Positions 8,262-62,938 of a stretch of 64,000 bases of DNA are shown in pieces. Where the stretch lies: the NCBI GenBank assembly GCA_017550285.1, contig JAFZPP010000017.1, forward strand, positions 1-64,000, given 5' to 3'. Within the stretch, counting starts at the first letter, position 1; each line of letters opens with the position of its first letter. This DNA comes from Oscillospiraceae bacterium (GTDB lineage Bacteria; Bacillota; Clostridia; Oscillospirales; Ruminococcaceae). The notes under the pieces were generated by a model. That model had not been told where the DNA came from. It was given only the letters and a program-made list of their open reading frames with translations, and did not search any database. A program made the position numbers and the translations under genes.

Positions 8262-10169
8262 ATGAAAATCCGAAATATTGCCGTGATCGTAATCGGTCTG
8301 GACGAGGAATATCAATATAATGTCATTCGCGGCATCAATCAGTATGCACGCGATAACAATGTCAATGTCACATATTTTGCAGCATTTCCCGGCGTTGTTG
8401 TCAGCAAGAAATTTGATATCGGCGAATTCAGCATCTTCAACCTGACCAATTTCTCCTATTTTGACGGTGCCCTGCTGATGCTCAATACATTCAGCAATTC
8501 CGAGCTCAAGGAACGAATCGTCTCGCGCGTGCGTGCATCCGGCATTCCGGCAGTCACCTTCGAGACCAAGGATTACCCCGAGTTCTATGATATCAGCATC
8601 GACAACTTCAAGGTCATGAAGGAGCTGACAAATCATGTCATTCAGGTGCACGGTGCAAAGGTGATCAACTACGTATCCGGTCCGCTCTCCAATCCCGAGG
8701 GCAGAACGCGGTACAATGCGTTTTTGAGCGCAATGAAGGAGAACAGTCTCCATGTTGACGAACGCCGCATCTTCCACGGCAGCTTCCGCGGCTATGACGG
8801 CAAGCTCGCCGCCGATGACTTTGCGGAATCCGGTCTGCCGCTGCCCGATGCGTTCATCTGCGCAAATGACAGCATGGCACTGACACTGATTACCTCGCTG
8901 CGGCAAATGGGCTACAGCGTGCCGGAGGATACGATTGTCACAGGCTTCGATGACAGCTTCATTGCAAAGAACAGCTCGCCGGAGCTGACATCCGTATCCC
9001 GTCCGCTGTATGAATCCGGCTATCAGGCATGCGATAAGCTCTGCCGCCTGCTGAACGGCGAGAATCAGCCGCGCTCGACGGAAATTTCCGCCGCGCCGGT
9101 CTATCGGGAAAGCTGCGGCTGTCCACGCTCCGCCGATGAAGATATCCGCGAAAACCAGAAGCAGACATTCAGCCGTCTCGAGCGCACAAACGCAAATATC
9201 CTGACGCTCAACCGTCTGACCGCAGGACTCGCAAGCGCTGAGACAACGGCGGAAAATATGGATGTTATCGCGTCAGTCCTCAACGATATCGACTGTGAAA
9301 AATTCTGTCTCTGCCTGACTGCGGACTGGCAGGAGGCGTTTTCGCCGAAGCTGCCGCCGCGTGACCCGAATGTCTACTGCGACTATATGACCGCGCCGCT
9401 GATCTGGGAGCGCACCGGACGCAGAAGCGTACCGATCTTCAAAAGCAGTGAGATGTTTCCCGAGCCGCCGCGGACCGGCGGAAATATCTATTACTTCCTG
9501 CCGCTGCATTTCGGCGACCGCTGCCTCGGCTATTACATCATTACAAACGGTAATTTCGCAATCAACAGCCTGCTCTGCCATACGCTGACCATGAACATCA
9601 GCAACTCGATTGAAAACATCCGCAAGCTGTTCCACCTGAACCGCGCCATGGAGGAGCTGAACCGCCTCTATGTCATTGACCCGCTCTGCGATATCTACAA
9701 CCGCAACGGCTTCATCAATCTTGCGGAGGAAATGTTCCGTGAGAGCGTCCGTAAGGGCGAAAGCATCCTGCTCAGCTTCATTGACATGGACGGGCTCAAA
9801 TTCATCAATGATAATTACGGGCATAATGAAGGCGATTTTGCAATCCGGCAGCTCGCCGAAATCATCAAAGCCTGCACGGATACGCACGGCATTGCAGCGC
9901 GCATCGGCGGCGATGAATTTGTAATCTTCGCAAAGAATGCCGGTCAGGACGCAGCGGATGCACTGGCGGACCGCTTCAATCATGCGCTTGCCGAATGCAA
10001 TCTGCGGCTGCAAAAGCCCTATCTGATCTCCGCCAGCATCGGCAGCATTGTAAACATCGCCAACGAAAACGATACGCTTTACAGCATGATTCAGCGCGCC
10101 GACGATAAGATGTATGAGATCAAAAAGTTCAAGAAAAGCGCACGGAAATCCGAAGCTGTGAGCGAATAA
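8262..10169 (+). CDS. LacI-type ligand-binding domain fused to GGDEF diguanylate cyclase
   Basis: The 635-residue protein starts directly in a periplasmic-binding-protein-like fold (Peripla_BP_3, as in LacI regulators), about 1-285. It contains the ICANDSMALTL and TGFDDS signatures of that fold. There is no helix-turn-helix, signal peptide or membrane segment. A middle region (about 290-450) is GAF-like or unassigned and precedes a helical linker. The C-terminal GGDEF domain has the intact GGDEF loop at about 549-553 (ARIGGDEFVIF), so c-di-GMP synthesis is expected. No RxxD inhibitory site is at the usual place before it. It presumably couples an intracellular sugar-like ligand to c-di-GMP. 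GAGGTG precedes ATG 8262. Confidence 0.9.
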   Translation: MKIRNIAVIVIGLDEEYQYNVIRGINQYARDNNVNVTYFAAFPGVVVSKKFDIGEFSIFNLTNFSYFDGALLMLNTFSNSELKERIVSRVRASGIPAVTFETKDYPEFYDISIDNFKVMKELTNHVIQVHGAKVINYVSGPLSNPEGRTRYNAFLSAMKENSLHVDERRIFHGSFRGYDGKLAADDFAESGLPLPDAFICANDSMALTLITSLRQMGYSVPEDTIVTGFDDSFIAKNSSPELTSVSRPLYESGYQACDKLCRLLNGENQPRSTEISAAPVYRESCGCPRSADEDIRENQKQTFSRLERTNANILTLNRLTAGLASAETTAENMDVIASVLNDIDCEKFCLCLTADWQEAFSPKLPPRDPNVYCDYMTAPLIWERTGRRSVPIFKSSEMFPEPPRTGGNIYYFLPLHFGDRCLGYYIITNGNFAINSLLCHTLTMNISNSIENIRKLFHLNRAMEELNRLYVIDPLCDIYNRNGFINLAEEMFRESVRKGESILLSFIDMDGLKFINDNYGHNEGDFAIRQLAEIIKACTDTHGIAARIGGDEFVIFAKNAGQDAADALADRFNHALAECNLRLQKPYLISASIGSIVNIANENDTLYSMIQRADDKMYEIKKFKKSARKSEAVSE

Positions 10170-10219: not shown

Positions 10220-10675
10220 TCAGGTCTGATCGCGCAGGACAGCTTCCAGCACGCCGGTTTCAGGATTTTGCTCGATACGGTATTTCTCATTGAAGGCAAC
10301 AAGCGCCGCATCCGATTTCAATTCTCTGCCGACCACGCTCTCCATCGTCACCGTCGGGTCAACCAGATGTGCACAGTAGTAAATCAGCACAAACTCTGCA
10401 TCAGACACACTGGCAATGAATTCAATACTGTCTGGAAATTTTTCTGTTTTCCCGTCAACGTTGCCGAGCGCGCGCTGTTCCTTGGTCAGGCTGCCGTCTA
10501 ACTGGCACATGACTTCAACATAATCACGCAGAATCAGCTGCGCATCTGCAATATTGACAGTCCCGTCCAGATTGACGTCACCCATTTGCGGTATAATCTC
10601 CTCTGCGGAGACCGGTGCAGTCAGCATCCCGCAAAGCAATACTCCTGTGATGATTCCGATGGACAGTTTTTTCAT
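10220..10675 (-). CDS. Small secreted dockerin protein, last gene of the sigma-factor unit
   Basis: The protein has 151 residues. A Sec signal peptide (MKKLSIG, hydrophobic core, APVSA) is probably cut after residue 24. A type-I dockerin follows almost at once: first calcium loop GDVNLDGTVNIADA at 32-45, helix LILRDY, then a second half starting GNVDGK near 71. In that second half about a dozen extra residues separate the loop from SVSDAEFVLIYY. The last 50 residues are unassigned and contain no known enzyme domain, so it may be a cohesin-binding adaptor or decoy. It is 23 bases after the dockerin-bearing membrane gene. AGGAGG sets ATG 10675. Confidence 0.85.
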   Translation of the reverse strand: MKKLSIGIITGVLLCGMLTAPVSAEEIIPQMGDVNLDGTVNIADAQLILRDYVEVMCQLDGSLTKEQRALGNVDGKTEKFPDSIEFIASVSDAEFVLIYYCAHLVDPTVTMESVVGRELKSDAALVAFNEKYRIEQNPETGVLEAVLRDQT

Positions 10676-10698
10676 GATAATTTCCTCCTTCAAAAGTG

Positions 10699-12048
10699 TC
10701 ATTCATTTTGTGATTCCGGCACACTGATGCCGATAAACTGTACGGCGGCATCCCATGCCGCATCTTCTGATGCAAAGCCGGAAAGAGATGTGTAATAATG
10801 GTTGCCGGATTCATCCCATACGGTACCGGTCAGATTGCCCGATTCATGTACATAACGGCTGTAATCCCTGCGAACCTGAACGGTCAGATTCTTCTCCGGA
10901 ATCTGCACTTCCAGTGTTGTTTCCGAAGGAATGCCGTCTATATACAGCACAGAATCCTCATCCGTCAGAAGATACCGCACCAACGTGACAAACTGCCCGC
11001 CGCAGCGGTAATATGCCTTGAACTCGCCGTCGCTTTGGTGATACCAGTAACCGGTCATCGTGAATGCGCCCACATGCACCGGCAATGCGCCGAATCCTTC
11101 AAGCTGCACGGATTCCTCCGAAGCATCGGTATACCGCCAGATCATATCACGGTCAGCACAGCCGCCTGCGCCGAGCCCGACGATGCGTCCGTACCTGATA
11201 AATTCTTCCAGCGACAACTGATCCGCATGCATATCATGACCGTGCAGTTCATCAATATATCGGATCAGGACAAAGCTGTCTGCATAGGAAACAGGATAAT
11301 CTGTCTCCTGATAATCCCTGCGCTGCGGCTGAATCTCATCCGATCCCGATACCAGCGGCAGCGGAATCCGGTTGTCGGCGATACAGTCTCCGAGCACAAG
11401 CTGCTCCGGCGTCAGCAGACTTTCACCGCCTTCCAGCACAACTGCCGTATATTCCGCCTGAAGCAGTATAGCATCCTGCGAATCGAGCACGCCGTCCATA
11501 TTCACATCGCCGAGCTGATACTTTGCAGTGATCTCCGGATCATAGGCGCGTCCTGCAATGGTCGGATGCGTTTTTGTGCCGGTTTCAGTCTGCGCTGCCG
11601 TTTTCTGTGAAGCGGTTGTATTCTGCTGTGTTTTGGCAGATGCGTTTTGCGTCGCCGAAGCAAGTTCCGTGCCGCTGACAGCAGTTGTCTGCGTGATGAT
11701 GCCGAGGCGGGTTTTCGATTCCGGCTTTGCGCTTGTTTCACTCTGCACGGTTGTGGTGACAGTCGCCGGAAAGACCTCTGTAATATCATGCGCATGCGAC
11801 TCGACCGGAAAATCCGGCGTCCTGCTGCCGAACCAGAGCCCCAGACCGATCACAGCCGTCAGACATGCCGCTGCACTGAGCGCTGCCGCAGCCCCGAGCA
11901 GCCTGTGCGGCATCTGCCTCCGCTGAACGATCTGCGGCGCTGCCGAAAAACCGTCTTTCTTCATATGCGCCATGCGGTACTGCACCGCTTCATCGAGATA
12001 CTCCGGCGGCAGAAGCGCCATGAGATCATTCATCTGCATATTATTCAC
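10699..12048 (-). CDS. Membrane protein with anti-sigma layout and an extracellular dockerin
   Basis: The 449-residue protein has a short cytosolic part (1-49), one membrane helix (about 50-73), a long Thr/Ser/Gln-rich linker (80-165) and an extracellular dockerin from about 179. The first calcium loop is GDVNMDGVLDSQDA. The second half is interrupted by about 20 residues before VSYADSFVLIRYI. An unassigned C-terminal domain (about 280-449) follows, possibly DUF4367-like. The start is the GTG at 12048, which overlaps the stop of the sigma-factor gene (GTGA); AGGAGG lies upstream. Coupling to an ECF sigma gene and a single-pass topology point to an anti-sigma factor. I see no zinc-binding HxxxCxxC motif, so that role is inferred. 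Confidence 0.82.
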   Translation of the reverse strand: MNNMQMNDLMALLPPEYLDEAVQYRMAHMKKDGFSAAPQIVQRRQMPHRLLGAAAALSAAACLTAVIGLGLWFGSRTPDFPVESHAHDITEVFPATVTTTVQSETSAKPESKTRLGIITQTTAVSGTELASATQNASAKTQQNTTASQKTAAQTETGTKTHPTIAGRAYDPEITAKYQLGDVNMDGVLDSQDAILLQAEYTAVVLEGGESLLTPEQLVLGDCIADNRIPLPLVSGSDEIQPQRRDYQETDYPVSYADSFVLIRYIDELHGHDMHADQLSLEEFIRYGRIVGLGAGGCADRDMIWRYTDASEESVQLEGFGALPVHVGAFTMTGYWYHQSDGEFKAYYRCGGQFVTLVRYLLTDEDSVLYIDGIPSETTLEVQIPEKNLTVQVRRDYSRYVHESGNLTGTVWDESGNHYYTSLSGFASEDAAWDAAVQFIGISVPESQNE

Positions 12049-12608
12049 ATCAATCCCTCCTTTCTCAGGTATTCTCCGAGCTTTTTGCGTGTCCGCAGCA
12101 GTGTCATTTTCACTGCGCTCTTTCCCATTTTGTGCTCCTCTGCCAGTTCGCTGACCGTACACATCATCCAGTAATGCTCAATAAAGAGAATGCGCGTTTC
12201 CTGCGGCAGGGACGATAAAAACTGCCCCAGCGCCGCACGGAGCATCCGCTGCTCCGCGGCAAGCGCCGTATCGTCCGCATCCGCCAGCACATCCGGCAGC
12301 GATTCCAGCGAGATATCCGCACTGCCGCCGCCGCGCTTGACCGCAGTATTCTGTGCCTGCCGGTCCAGTGCAATATGTTTTGTCAGCGTGATGAGAAATG
12401 CACGGAAGCTCTTCGGCTTTGCCGGCGGAATCGCATTCCAGAGATGCAGCATCGCATCGCTGACACATTCCTCCGCATCCTCTGCATTGCCCAGAATTCT
12501 GTATACAATGCTGTAGCAGAAGCCGCCGTAGCGTGTCTGTGTTTCGGCGATTGCCTGCTCACTGCGCATTTCAAACATCCGTATCAGATCAGCGTCATCT
12601 GCCGGCAT
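12045..12608 (-). CDS. ECF-type RNA polymerase sigma factor
   Basis: This 187-residue protein has the two domains of extracytoplasmic-function sigma factors. Region 2 runs over about 25-90 and includes YSIVYRILGNAEDAEECVSD. Region 4 at the C-terminus contains LPQETRILFIEHYWM and the helix-turn-helix TVSELAEEHKMGKSAVKMTLLRTRKKL. It would direct RNA polymerase to a small regulon when released from its membrane partner, encoded by the overlapping next gene. ATG 12608 was chosen because AGGAGG lies 8 bases upstream; an ATG two codons earlier lies too close to that site. An ECF-style promoter 44 bases upstream suggests autoregulation. Confidence 0.92.
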   Translation of the reverse strand: MPADDADLIRMFEMRSEQAIAETQTRYGGFCYSIVYRILGNAEDAEECVSDAMLHLWNAIPPAKPKSFRAFLITLTKHIALDRQAQNTAVKRGGGSADISLESLPDVLADADDTALAAEQRMLRAALGQFLSSLPQETRILFIEHYWMMCTVSELAEEHKMGKSAVKMTLLRTRKKLGEYLRKEGLM

Positions 12609-12651
12609 ATGCATCGCCTCCTTTGCTTTTGTTTTCCCCGCTTCATTCCCA

Positions 12652-12680
12652 TAGACGGCAAATCTCCCCGAACGGTCACA
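12652..12680 (-). promoter_or_regulatory. Putative ECF-sigma promoter controlling the sigma/dockerin operon
   Basis: The minus strand has TGTGACC, 16 bases, CGTCTA. The shape matches ECF promoters (TGtaAC-type -35, CGTC-type -10 as for SigM/SigX/SigW groups) and not the sigma-A consensus. Its position, 44 bases before the sigma start codon, fits autoregulation. Confidence 0.55.
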
Positions 12681-16774: not shown

Positions 16775-16812
16775 AATCCGCGAAGTCAAACTGGCTTCGC
16801 GGATTGTTTTTT
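16775..16812. terminator. Bidirectional rho-independent terminator
   Basis: AATCCGCGAAG pairs perfectly with CTTCGCGGATT around an 8-base loop, followed by GTTTTTTT on the plus strand. It also serves the convergent peptidase gene, whose stop codon touches it. Confidence 0.9.
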
Positions 16813-18916
16813 ATGCTGCGGTTGTTGTTTTTGTTGTGGACACCGTTGTCTGTACAGCGGTTGTTGTTTTCGCAGTTGCTGCACTGGTTACTGCCGCAGT
16901 TGTCGCAGTCGCAGCCTTTGTGGTAGTTGCTGCCTTTGTAGTGGTGGACGCTGCTGTTGTCTTCGGGGGCGCTGCGGTAGTGGTCGCGGCGGTCGAATTT
17001 TGCGTTGTGGTTCTGGCGGTTGTAGTTGCTGCGGTTGTGGTTGCAGCGGCAGTTGTTGCAATCGTTTTTGCGGTGGTAGTTGTTGTAGTCGTTTTTGTAG
17101 TGGTGGCAGTAGTAGTTGATGTGGTAGTTGTTGTTGTCGTAGTCGTCGTTGTCGTAGTCGTCGTTGTCGTAGTCGTCGTTGTCGTGGTTTCCGGATCGAG
17201 CAGATGCTCCCAGCCGACTTCACGCTGCGCAACCGTATTCGTCACATAATACAGCAGAATCATCTGCGCATCTGCGACCGTCAGATCGCCGCTGCCGTCG
17301 ATATCCGCATTTTCAAAGCCGTGCAGATCAACCGGCGCACTCTCAAAGCCGGAAAGCGACGAGATATACCGATCGAGCACAAGCTGCGCGTCGATATTGT
17401 CAATCCGGTCGTCAATATTGAAATCGCCGCGCTGATAAATCTTCTCCCAGTGTGCATACAGCGTGTGCGCATCGGTATTCGTCAGCTTCGTGCTGCCGGT
17501 GATCTGCTGCGGCGGTTCGGCATCCTGCTCCTCCGCGGCATCCGGCTGTGTTTCCGGCTGATCGGTCTCCTGCGGCTGCGTATACCACCCAAGGAACTTC
17601 CACCAGCTGCGCTGCGGAACGGGCAGTTCGCCGTATGTGCCCGGATAATGCACGGTCTCCGGCGCATTCTCCACCGTACCGCCTGCCGCATCAAAGGAAA
17701 TCGGCACATCACCGCTGACCGAGACAGCATATGCCGCAGGCTCGAGCTTGCCGTAGCTGTTGGCAATCTCGGCGGAAAGCGCATATTCGCCCGGCAGCTC
17801 CGGCGTCCAGACATCCGTTGCCTCACTGTCTTTCAGTACGCGCACCGTGCGCAGATCGCGGTACTGCTCGCCGTTTCTGCGGATATGAACGATCTGCTCC
17901 GTCGAAAGGTCACTGGAAAGTGTCAGGTCAATCGGCTTGCCGGTCTCCCCTTTTTCCGCGGAGATTTTGAAATCCGCTTTCTCCGGCGCGCCCTCATAGA
18001 CATGGAACACAAAATCCGGACTGTCGATCATGCCGAACTCATTTGCGCCGGTCACATAGCAGGAATAATCGCCGACCGGCAGCTGATAACGAAAATGCTG
18101 CCGCGAGGAAAGCGCGTAATCACGAACATAAAGCGTTGAAAGCCGCTCGCCGTCCTTGTCATTGATGCCGAGCGCGAAGGTATTGCGCGTATCGCTGTCA
18201 GCAACAAAATCAATGACCTCATTTGCACCGGCATAGTCGATACCGCTGTTCAGCCCGACCTCTGCACGCTCCGGTGCTTTCGTATTCGAGAGCAGAATAT
18301 ACCACGAACCGGCAGTCTTGCCCTGACTGAGTTTCTGCCCCGAAACCCAGCTGTCGCCGGAAAGTCCGCGGCTGTCAGAAACAGCGCTCTCAATGACATG
18401 ATAGGTCTGATTCTCTTCATTGTAGCCCGTCACGGCAATGAAATGCCCCGGCACATGCAGCACGATCACGCCGCCTGTTTTCAGATGATTGATCGCGGCG
18501 GGCTGGGTCACGGTGCCGAAATACTCCTTGCCGAGCGTAAAATGAAATTTCTCGCCGAATTTCTTTTCGATATTTGCATAGAGAATATCGCGGTAGGTGC
18601 CGCCCCCGCCCGGACGGAATGCACCGATTTCATATGCCCACTGCGCAACCTCGACCGCATCGGCTTCGGTGCCGTTGAGGCCGTAGAGCGCATTGCAGAA
18701 GGAGAAAATGCCGCAGGCAGAGGTATACATGGAGTTGCCGGTTGTGGCATAGCCGTCCCATGTGACATCCTTCCATTTTGCCTCCCACTGGTTATAGAGT
18801 CTGCCGTCTGCGGCTTCTGCACAGAGCGGCGCGGTTGTCAGATGCGGAAAGCCGAGCAGCACCGTGCAGCAGAGCACAGCAGCCGTCAGCGTGCCGATGA
18901 TTTTTTTCCCGTTCAT
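16811..18916 (-). CDS. Secreted C39-like cysteine peptidase with InlB-type repeat, dockerin and Thr-rich tail
   Basis: The protein has 701 residues. A signal peptide covers about 1-36. A papain-like C39 domain follows, with Cys68 in TSACGIFSFCNALYG and His158 in HVPGHFIAVTGY. Beta-rich regions at about 215-400 are unassigned. A Listeria-Bacteroides (InlB B) repeat runs from ISFDAAGGTV (about 407) to TLYAHWEK (about 492), interrupted by an acidic Pro/Gln/Glu insertion. A dockerin has loops GDFNIDDRIDNIDA (497-510) and ADIDGSGDLTVADA (537-550). The last 125 residues are almost all Thr and Ala. It is probably a cellulosome-attached or cell-surface protease; a peptidoglycan amidase-like role is possible. 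Confidence 0.87.
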   Translation of the reverse strand: MNGKKIIGTLTAAVLCCTVLLGFPHLTTAPLCAEAADGRLYNQWEAKWKDVTWDGYATTGNSMYTSACGIFSFCNALYGLNGTEADAVEVAQWAYEIGAFRPGGGGTYRDILYANIEKKFGEKFHFTLGKEYFGTVTQPAAINHLKTGGVIVLHVPGHFIAVTGYNEENQTYHVIESAVSDSRGLSGDSWVSGQKLSQGKTAGSWYILLSNTKAPERAEVGLNSGIDYAGANEVIDFVADSDTRNTFALGINDKDGERLSTLYVRDYALSSRQHFRYQLPVGDYSCYVTGANEFGMIDSPDFVFHVYEGAPEKADFKISAEKGETGKPIDLTLSSDLSTEQIVHIRRNGEQYRDLRTVRVLKDSEATDVWTPELPGEYALSAEIANSYGKLEPAAYAVSVSGDVPISFDAAGGTVENAPETVHYPGTYGELPVPQRSWWKFLGWYTQPQETDQPETQPDAAEEQDAEPPQQITGSTKLTNTDAHTLYAHWEKIYQRGDFNIDDRIDNIDAQLVLDRYISSLSGFESAPVDLHGFENADIDGSGDLTVADAQMILLYYVTNTVAQREVGWEHLLDPETTTTTTTTTTTTTTTTTTTTTTTSTTTATTTKTTTTTTTAKTIATTAAATTTAATTTARTTTQNSTAATTTAAPPKTTAASTTTKAATTTKAATATTAAVTSAATAKTTTAVQTTVSTTKTTTAA
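17133..17187 (+). repeat. 15-base tandem repeat coding for polythreonine
   Basis: The unit GTTGTCGTAGTCGTC occurs three times in full plus a ten-base partial copy. On the coding strand it encodes five threonines per unit, so copy number can change without shifting the frame. Confidence 0.85.
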
Positions 18917-48915: not shown

Positions 48916-50847
48916 TCAGTCCCAGTCCGGAAATCCGGCAATGATTTTTGCGATATATTGCAGGATCATGATATTATCATCGGCGCTCAGACCGTCTATG
49001 CCGTCGCATTCGGCATTGATCTTGCCCTGCGCCGTGACCTCTGCGCCCGCATCCTCTGCAAGAAAACGTGCCAGCAGCACCGCATCCGAAACATCCACGT
49101 TTCCGTCGCAGTTGACGTCGCCGGTCCCTGCGCCGAGTTTCTCCGCCGCGGATGTTTCCGCAGTTGTTGTGGTTGTCACGGTCTCCGTAGTAGTTGTTGT
49201 TGCAGTTTCGGCAGTTGTCGTTGTTGTCTCCGTGATTGTGGTCGTCGTGCTCTCGGTGGTCGTGGTTTCGGTCGTGGTTTCAGTGGTCTCCGCAGGCTTT
49301 GCAAACACTGCTGCAAAATAGTTCACGCAGTTCTGCGAGGTGAAATTGCTGCCGAGCGTAACCGATTCACCCTTCTTCACATCTCTTACAAAGACGGTGA
49401 ATTCCTCGCCGTTTGAGCTGAAAAGCTGCGTCCGCATATGGGTAAAATCCTTGAGCCAGCTTGCATTCAGCTGCTCGGCGGAAAGGCTCTGAATCACGCG
49501 CACATCCATATATACGCTCAGGGTCAGGTCTTCCGCAGCGGTCAGCGTCGCCAGATCGCCGGAGAACTTTTTGGAATCGCATGCAGTCCGGATCAGCTCG
49601 CCACCCGAAGCGGGCGTGTTACCTTCACCGGCAACGGTATAATCACGGTCGCCGAACATTTTGCTGCCGACGCCGAAATTCTCCTCAATGCCCCAGCTCG
49701 CGCCGTTAACGGAATCATTGACAACAAGCTGCGCAATCAGCTTGCTGCTGTATTCCGGCATCTGCGGCAGGTCCTCCGGTTCATCCTGCGAGCCGTCGGT
49801 CGGCAGCAGTGCAAGACTGACAATATTCTTGCCCCAGTTGCCGTACCACGCATAGCCGGTTCTGCGCTCCTGCGAGATTTCCATGACATTGTAATGCACG
49901 GAGCTGTCGCGGTCGGAGAAGAGCGGTCTGTCCGTATTCAGTTCATAGAAGCGCGCCCAGAGCGGCGAAGCATTCGGATTCTCGCGGACGATCTTGTCAT
50001 CGCCGGATTTGACAAACTCGATGCCGGTCAGCGTGACCTTCTTGAACCACTCGATTGCGGTATTGACTGATTTGCGGATATCGGTCCGCGCGGGATTCTC
50101 CTTCGCATACTGATACAGGAACGTAATGATGCCGGCGCTCTCGCTGGTACAGTTTGAGGGCAGCTCATAGGCACGCGCCGCCGCAGGCTTGAGCGTATTT
50201 TCATCGTGCTGCTGACACCACGCCGCGCCGGAAATCTGCATGTCGAGCAGGCACTGGATGCCGTTCTCGAGCGAAGTCTTCGCCTTCTGCGCATAGGCAT
50301 CGCTGACCGCAGTGAAATCGCCGGATTTGCTGCTGATTTCTTTCATGATCTGGAGCACATGCACATAGGCGCCGTCATTGAGCGTGATATGCGCATGATA
50401 GGTGCCCGGCGTATTCAGGCACTGCATCCAGCCGCCGTTGCTGTACTGCATCTTAAACAGGCAGTCCACGCCGCGCATCGCGCAGTCAAGATACTTCTGC
50501 TGCTTCGTCTGCTGATATGTCCGCATCAGGAACCGGATCTGCGAGGTTGTCGCATCATTGTCAATCGTCGAATGCGCCCAGTCACCTGTATGCGCAGTTG
50601 TCATGCCCTTCTGCCAGCCGCCTTCATTGGCAACCTGATACTGAATGCACTCATCTGCAATTTTGATCGCCTCGCTGCCGGCAAACCAGCTCGCATCCTT
50701 TTTCAGAAAGCCTGACCAGTCATAGTCCGCCTCTGCGGCACTGACCGTCACGGCGTAATCCGGCTGCACGGCAGTCTGCGGCAGAGCAGCGGCGCTCCCG
50801 AGCAGCACCAGCGAAGCGCAAAGCCCTGCAATCATCTTCTGTTTCAC
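48916..50847 (-). CDS. Secreted PL10-family pectate lyase with dockerin
   Basis: This enzyme cleaves polygalacturonate by beta-elimination outside the cell. The 643-residue protein has a Sec signal peptide (about 1-37, ending VSAAEA). A catalytic domain of the Pel10 (alpha/alpha toroid) type has NEGGWQKGM near 75, STIDNDATTSQIRFL, YSNGGWMQ and ARFYELNTDRPLFSDRDSSVHYNV. A carbohydrate-binding-like beta domain (about 390-510) follows, then a Thr/Glu linker and a canonical dockerin (from 572) with loops GDVNCDGNVDVSDA and CDGIDGLSADD. The GTG at 50847 has better ribosome-site spacing than the ATG at 50853. Confidence 0.9.
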   Translation of the reverse strand: MKQKMIAGLCASLVLLGSAAALPQTAVQPDYAVTVSAAEADYDWSGFLKKDASWFAGSEAIKIADECIQYQVANEGGWQKGMTTAHTGDWAHSTIDNDATTSQIRFLMRTYQQTKQQKYLDCAMRGVDCLFKMQYSNGGWMQCLNTPGTYHAHITLNDGAYVHVLQIMKEISSKSGDFTAVSDAYAQKAKTSLENGIQCLLDMQISGAAWCQQHDENTLKPAAARAYELPSNCTSESAGIITFLYQYAKENPARTDIRKSVNTAIEWFKKVTLTGIEFVKSGDDKIVRENPNASPLWARFYELNTDRPLFSDRDSSVHYNVMEISQERRTGYAWYGNWGKNIVSLALLPTDGSQDEPEDLPQMPEYSSKLIAQLVVNDSVNGASWGIEENFGVGSKMFGDRDYTVAGEGNTPASGGELIRTACDSKKFSGDLATLTAAEDLTLSVYMDVRVIQSLSAEQLNASWLKDFTHMRTQLFSSNGEEFTVFVRDVKKGESVTLGSNFTSQNCVNYFAAVFAKPAETTETTTETTTTESTTTTITETTTTTAETATTTTTETVTTTTTAETSAAEKLGAGTGDVNCDGNVDVSDAVLLARFLAEDAGAEVTAQGKINAECDGIDGLSADDNIMILQYIAKIIAGFPDWD

Positions 50848-50904
50848 ATTCATTCCTCCCCCTGAAATACAAGCCGGACGGCACAGCTCCGGCATCTTAA
50901 TTTG

Positions 50905-50933
50905 ATTATAACGGATGTACGGGCAAATTGCAA
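50905..50933 (-). promoter_or_regulatory. Sigma-A promoter for the pectate lyase gene
   Basis: The minus strand reads TTGCAA, 17 bases, TATAAT, about 58 bases upstream of the start. Confidence 0.8.
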
Positions 50934-51073
50934 GTATCAAAACGCGCCGATCTATGACGGATTGTCTCAAACGCTGTGAATTTATGTTCCATATTGCAAA
51001 TTTTATGAGAATCATGCTTCATCCGTTCACAGAATATTTATAAAGTTGTACATATGAAACATGCGGTTTTTCG

Positions 51074-62821: not shown

Positions 62822-62922
62822 GCCGCAGAGTAGGAAATTTCGCGTAAAGTGCCGTCCGGACGGGGAGTTGTCGGGCGGACGAAAAGCGTCTCCGGACGCT
62901 TGCGGTGAGATTTCCGCATCCC
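62822..62922 (+). promoter_or_regulatory. Tetrahydrofolate riboswitch aptamer
   Basis: The conserved sequence blocks of the THF riboswitch class occur in order: AGAGTAG, TTCGCGT-AAGTG, a GC-rich stem with GGACGGGGAGTTGTC, CGAAAAGCG, and GCGGTGAGA followed by GCATCCCGCT. It lies directly upstream of a folate transporter gene, the usual target. The aptamer is expected to bind reduced folate and lower expression. Confidence 0.88.
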
Positions 62923-62938
62923 GCTGAGGCATAAGGGA

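Follow-up and report, generated by a model that had tools for sequence, protein, structure and literature searches.

Single-pass ECF anti-sigma factors of the RsiW type cross the membrane by a single helix and are encoded in operons with an ECF-type promoter. In Acetivibrio (Clostridium) thermocellum and its relatives, each SigI sigma factor is held by RsgI, a membrane anti-sigma factor encoded beside it, the outer domain of which senses the fibre-degrading surface, and many paralogous pairs are present per genome, often near dockerin and cohesin genes (excerpts of PMC3413522). The same excerpts list CBM, PA14 and peptidase as outer domains of RsgI sensors, with GH in C. thermocellum, and a table of RsgI-like proteins from A. 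cellulolyticus displays CBM, PA14, peptidase or unknown outer domains. Release of the sigma factor from RsgI was linked to RseP cleavage (PMC12203970, available part). According to the accessible sections of a 2024 survey, the RsgI suite is used only by producers of Acetivibrio-type cellulosomes (PMC11557425), and how ruminococci regulate their cellulosome genes was described as not yet understood (PMC4081043, in excerpt). In Ruminococcus flavefaciens, the dockerins of ScaB, CttA, ScaH and a peptidase (group 4) bind the cell-wall cohesin ScaE (PMC5301203, in excerpt).

The operon described here lies on the minus strand of a 64,000-base window (bases 1-64000 of contig C23), i.e., the whole stretch of DNA analyzed, from a host genome of 3.4 Mb in 50 contigs. 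Its gene order, single helix and ECF-type operon promoter are those of the RsiW type, whereas neither a zinc finger nor another known anti-sigma domain was recognised and the large outer part carried a dockerin. With the SigI/RsgI pairs it shares a co-encoded membrane partner presumed to hold the sigma factor, an outer domain that may sense the fibre-degrading surface, and membership in a large set of paralogous pairs, but the sigma factor is of the ECF type (sigma2 and sigma4), the partner has no RsgI_M match and the outer domain is a dockerin. That dockerin is close to group 4 of R. flavefaciens, ScaH being the best structure match and some cohesin-bearing proteins of the genome displaying a related dockerin type, but its second repeat is interrupted and not symmetrical, the Gly-Arg dyad is missing at the first site, and it is borne by an anti-sigma factor and by a small protein without other recognised domain. 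We rate the dockerin as outer domain of an anti-sigma factor as new, and the ECF sigma/anti-sigma arrangement as already known. No dockerin-bearing anti-sigma factor was found in the open-access literature searched, nor in the available portions of PMC3413522, PMC2930009, PMC4081043, PMC5301203, PMC6056542, PMC11557425, PMC5748583, PMC5801460 and PMC5590126; within that literature, this agrees with an earlier, sequence-only reading of the window, which knew of no such system.

Operon layout and the family of sigma factor and membrane partner pairs

The first gene (12045..12608, minus strand, start codon picked to agree with orthologues) encoded an ECF sigma factor of 187 aa, with both ECF domains (sigma2 and sigma4) over cut-off in Pfam and NCBIfam. 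Its stop overlapped by GTGA the GTG start of the gene for a single-pass membrane partner of 449 aa, the presumed anti-sigma factor (10699..12048, minus strand), and the gene for a small secreted dockerin protein of 151 aa (10220..10675, minus strand) followed 23 bp further on, as the sequence-only reading had proposed for all three genes. The membrane partner (all parts on the minus strand) comprised a cytosolic N-terminus with a short conserved helix, presumed to bind the sigma factor (residues 1-49, 11902..12048; aligned to 21 paralogues of the own genome and to 6 relatives), a single transmembrane helix preceded by basic residues and followed by few (residues 50-68, 11845..11901; hydropathy), a Ser/Thr/Ala-rich linker (11530..11838; alignment), a dockerin fold (residues 177-287, 11188..11520) and a C-terminal outer domain without known family (residues 288-449, 10702..11187; no Pfam family over cut-off, low-confidence model). 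Convergent with the operon, a LacI-type sugar-binding domain fused to GGDEF was encoded at 8262-10169 (plus strand).

At 43 of the 53 sigma70_r2 sites of the host genome, the next frame spanned 200 aa or more and had a predicted helix, a few of these cases being doubtful. In a sigma factor tree of 72 rows (41 from the own genome, 31 from relatives), 56 rows fell into one 100/100 clade, including 27 from the own genome, and 25 of these 27 overlapped their partner by 4 bp. The partners had a short N-terminal helix motif in common (alignment). Over 42 partners, Pfam recognised 11 families at E 0.01, with 1 to 4 partners per family, and most partners were without Pfam domain. The membrane protein of the window matched no Pfam family at E 0.01 and was thus without the RsgI_M central domain, for which a single match was obtained in the whole genome, at another locus on contig C37.

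No known anti-sigma domain was recognised in the N-terminus of the membrane protein by Pfam, no convincing PDB match was obtained with a 28-row profile, and the NCBIfam antisigma model, which has a cut-off of 100 bits, scored 19.2 bits, as would be expected if the membrane protein were a mere neighbour of the sigma gene and no anti-sigma factor. Such a reading is very improbable given the recurrent 4-bp overlap and the covariation of the two proteins, since sigma factor distances were tracked better by the first 32 residues of the partners (Mantel r 0.62, 54 rows, 0 of 2000 permutations reaching the observed value) than by the last 150 residues (r 0.44), a correlation to which shared history also contributes. 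The pairing of an ECF sigma factor with its own membrane partner, claimed from the window alone, was in this way extended to a paralogous family.

The dockerin label changed 10 times on the sigma tree, which indicates that outer domains were swapped. Loci L155 (dockerin) and L160 (no dockerin match, outer part PASTA-like by eye) had near-identical sigma factors and partners alike at 97 of the first 105 residues. Two pairs without dockerin match (C31_139694 and L162) were placed next to the window as nested branches of the tree.

A search for ECF sigma genes beside dockerin-bearing transmembrane proteins, as suggested by the sequence-only reading, yielded at least 21 loci in at least 15 of 30 genomes of the genus, these counts being biased lower bounds as loci were chosen by eye for likeness to the anti-sigma factor of the window. 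Fourteen of the 21 loci served as seeds of the search profile, and the seven others scored E 1e-24 to 3.6e-13; with a profile built from 30 other dockerins of the own genome, each of the 21 had an E of 0.01 or lower (in these small sets). Seven of the dockerin-bearing anti-sigma factors (L163, L164, L165 and L217-L220) were shorter, with 361-409 aa. Weak dockerin matches were displayed by 5 further loci, two of them in the own genome (C17_50977 and C13_43425). The membrane protein of the window used as query had no match in 31 genomes of other genera. Loci L157 and L158, considered as orthologues of the window, were rejected as such, the sigma tree giving no support.

The outer dockerin and the cohesins of the genome

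The presence of a dockerin in the part outside the cell was borne out by profile and fold. The dockerin fold was present in the membrane protein while two canonical calcium-binding repeats were not, loop 1 being canonical and loop 2 interrupted, and Pfam scores were under cut-off. Calcium loop 1 was invariant across 7 aligned sequences, and between two genomes the dockerin showed a dN/dS of 0.15, a ratio drawn from just nine differences (6 synonymous, 3 nonsynonymous). Among solved structures, the ScaH dockerin of R. flavefaciens, known from a crystal with a cohesin, was the best match for the dockerins of both the membrane protein and the small protein. By eye against ScaH, the Gly-Arg recognition dyad that group-4 dockerins have in both repeats (PMC5301203, in excerpt) was replaced at the first site by Ser-Gln in the anti-sigma factor and by Ile-Ala in the small protein. 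The AlphaFold model of the outer part was poor overall (mean pLDDT 45.2), with values per ten-residue block of 64-81 for the first half of the dockerin, 29-53 near the insert and 53-68 for the second half; a structure search with this low-confidence model returned no convincing fold match for residues 288-449. The AlphaFold model of the small protein (6 sequences, mean pLDDT 51.6) was too poor for use.

The own genome is that of a cellulosome producer, with at least 149 dockerin matches (150 of 296 candidates scored) and 21 cohesin matches with E of 1 or lower, among which 16 exceeded the cut-off. Two dockerin profiles were compared, an enzyme-type profile and a second type built from 7 dockerins chosen by eye, six of which came from proteins with a cohesin match (two of those cohesin matches below cut-off). 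The small protein clearly fell into the second type, with 61.0 bits against 20.2 for the enzyme type, and the anti-sigma factor of the window weakly so (21.1 against 16.7 bits), while the dockerin at L163 was not (11.7 against 12.7 bits).

A profile of the small proteins matched at least 55 places in the own genome (150 of 187 candidates scored), among which the anti-sigma dockerin ranked 23rd, 21 places outside the operon matching better. Five of these places (one each on C31, C24 and C46, the other two on C27) fell within the roughly 16 frames that have a cohesin match, and most of the remaining places were in large proteins of unknown make-up; cohesin-bearing proteins at L031 and L032 displayed another dockerin type. 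A 'scaffoldin-type' label for the dockerin was dropped on account of the 5 places among at least 55, which made a docking switch slightly less likely and a decayed dockerin slightly more so. Judged by these profiles, the dockerin type is common to several scaffoldin-like proteins and to many others, and is not specific to scaffoldins.

A cohesin of a scaffoldin or of the cell-surface layer is one candidate partner, because ScaH was the best match and related dockerins occur on some of the cohesin-bearing proteins in the genome, and a surface cohesin also by analogy with ScaE of R. flavefaciens. An LPxTG cohesin was looked for in 10 cohesin loci and 8 regions and none was seen, several frames there running off the stretch; sortase matches in the own genome amounted to 7. 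That both dockerins of the operon dock to the same cohesin is a guess, in view of the 23rd rank of the anti-sigma dockerin.

Promoter, small dockerin protein and exchange with a relative

An ECF-type promoter motif, TGTGACC-N16-CGTCT (12653..12680, minus strand), was located 44 bp 5' of the sigma start codon. The same motif, with varied spacer bases, was found 5' of the sigma gene at L152, L153, L154, L155, L156 and L160; counting the window, 7 of 10 rows in its sigma clade carried the motif. The strict pattern matched once in the own genome, at the window itself, against 4 matches for the backward control, so that only place and conservation count as support for the promoter. In eight relatives, 17 strict matches (15 for the control) comprised 7 at orthologous operons, 3 at 37 bp before another ECF pair (in genomes G004, G021 and G025) and 7 elsewhere, five of which were examined for a wider regulon and displayed no convincing target. 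A loose motif scan retrieved 13 of 74 upstream stretches, compared with 1.7% of random ones; the window was not among the matches because its sigma start had been placed too far 5'. From the position and conservation of the motif, we read the operon as putatively autoregulated, with a sigma factor that may act on its own promoter. At L153 (G001:C45 7693-7827), two copies of the motif were found 107 bp apart 5' of the orthologous sigma gene.

No domain besides the dockerin was recognised by Pfam in the small secreted protein. A dockerin protein was encoded by the next gene (within 100 bp) at 13 of 21 dockerin-bearing pairs and at 8 of 46 others (Fisher p 5e-4; the 5 weak rows, excluded from this test, had no downstream dockerin gene), but the association was not significant over 8 phylogenetically independent pairs (sign test, median p 0.125). 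In the own genome, 6 of 41 pairs had a dockerin gene next. Within the sigma clade of the window, the small protein was present at 5 of the 7 dockerin-bearing rows (window, L152, L153, L154 and L155) and missing at L156 and L159; no counterpart followed the anti-sigma gene directly at L157, L158, L164 (one of two), L217, L218 and L220. As it was absent from several dockerin loci, the small protein is not essential. A link between the small protein and the receptor, as drawn in the sequence-only reading, was supported by its presence at 5 of 7 clade loci and by the block exchange described below.

DNA identity to the close relative G012 was 0.81-0.97 in the sigma gene and in the inner half of the gene for the membrane partner; it rose to 0.95-1.00 in the stretch that runs from the dockerin into the middle of the small gene, and then fell to 0.72 over about 100 bp. 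Synonymous divergence followed the same pattern, with dS of 0.41-0.45 in the N-terminus and linker, 0.08 in the dockerin, 0.03 in the C-terminal part and 0.02 in codons 1-73 of the small protein, and saturation (about 2) in its codons 74-97 (10385..10456, minus strand). These values fit a recent exchange of the outer part of the anti-sigma factor (dockerin and C-terminal domain) together with the first half of the small gene, and, because synonymous change was saturated there, codons 74-97 fit a replaced block in the second half of the small dockerin. Positive selection on these codons was not supported, on the same ground. The comparison concerned one pair of assembled genomes, G012 being in about 530 contigs and 75% complete, so assembly error could mimic the exchange.

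Several arrangements of dockerin genes were observed besides these operons. At L104, L118, L131, L144 and L148 of the own genome, an ECF/membrane pair without dockerin match in the partner had a dockerin gene within 100 bp. Seven head-to-tail dockerin genes (139-270 aa) were encoded at L232 (1773-6378, own-genome contig C45), a few kb from two ECF pairs. Tandem small secreted dockerins matching the same profile were found at L225, L226 and L230, in stretches without dockerin-bearing membrane partner, and at L226 a weak sigma match (35 bits) lay upstream of them.

Candidate mechanism, alternatives and other features of the window

A possible mechanism would add sigma binding, cohesin binding, a signal and a feedback to what was observed, namely the order of the genes, the ECF domains, the profile and fold of the dockerin, the conserved promoter and the recurrence of the arrangement: the operon may be an autoregulated ECF switch whose outer dockerin docks to a cohesin, the docking state setting the release of the sigma factor, a reading that we propose tentatively and with somewhat less than even confidence. 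The short cytosolic N-terminus of the partner would hold the sigma factor, as expected from the family, while the single helix and flexible linker would place the dockerin outside the membrane, where it may plug into one of the cohesins of the genome. Docking, or its loss, would alter how far the outer part is exposed or how much tension it is under and thereby, by analogy with RsgI, its proteolysis and the release of the sigma factor. A site-2 protease match was obtained in the own genome, which says little because the same family was present in 14 of 14 control genomes. The released sigma factor would then fire its own promoter and raise the production of sigma factor, anti-sigma factor and small secreted dockerin protein, which may occupy or compete for the same kind of site and so provide feedback.

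The main rival to this docking switch is that the dockerin merely parks the receptor by anchoring it to the cellulosome and that something else is sensed, the signal coming from the C-terminal domain (residues 288-449) or from a mechanical pull when the scaffold grips the fibre. It would account for the presence, after the dockerin in orthologues, of a distinct C-terminal part (about 160 residues), for the dockerin and C-terminal part looking exchanged together between two close genomes, and for the binding of polysaccharide by clostridial RsgI sensors (excerpts of PMC3413522). However, the C-terminal part was less conserved than the dockerin between distant orthologues, and other dockerin-bearing anti-sigma factors, mentioned above, were shorter; anchoring without sensing by the dockerin is, on this evidence, rather unlikely.

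A dockerin that has decayed or been repurposed and no longer binds cohesin, e.g., a calcium-sensing fold derived from domain shuffling, would agree with the interrupted loop 2, the Pfam scores under cut-off, the missing group-4 recognition dyad and the frequent swaps of outer domains. It is quite improbable in view of the invariant calcium loop 1 and the low dN/dS, itself from nine differences in all. Besides, R. flavefaciens group-2 dockerins, which are like truncated group-4 modules, do bind cohesins (PMC5301203, in excerpt), and one repeat alone is recognised in such dockerins (available part of PMC2930009).

A broader form of the docking switch would be a family of ECF receptors whose dockerins compete for cohesins, sense free or occupied docking sites, answer with secreted dockerins, have swapped their outer domains and replace SigI/RsgI in Ruminococcus; taken as a whole, this is unlikely. 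Nevertheless, the ECF/anti-sigma family, with outer dockerins in some members and dockerin proteins from the same operon, provides a testable candidate for the regulation of the Ruminococcus cellulosome. If the docking switch is true, the assembly tag of a molecular machine would be used as a signalling receptor.

Elsewhere in the window, a secreted protein of 701 aa with a Thr-rich tail was encoded at 16811-18916 (minus strand) and displayed a dockerin match of 20.9 bits (Pfam, below cut-off). No peptidase family was recognised in it by Pfam or NCBIfam; its N-terminal half presumably resembles a C39-like cysteine peptidase, judged by eye. A 699-aa protein with a Pectic acid lyase domain was encoded at 48916-51015 (minus strand), and a THF riboswitch (88.4 bits) was detected at 62824-62928 (plus strand).
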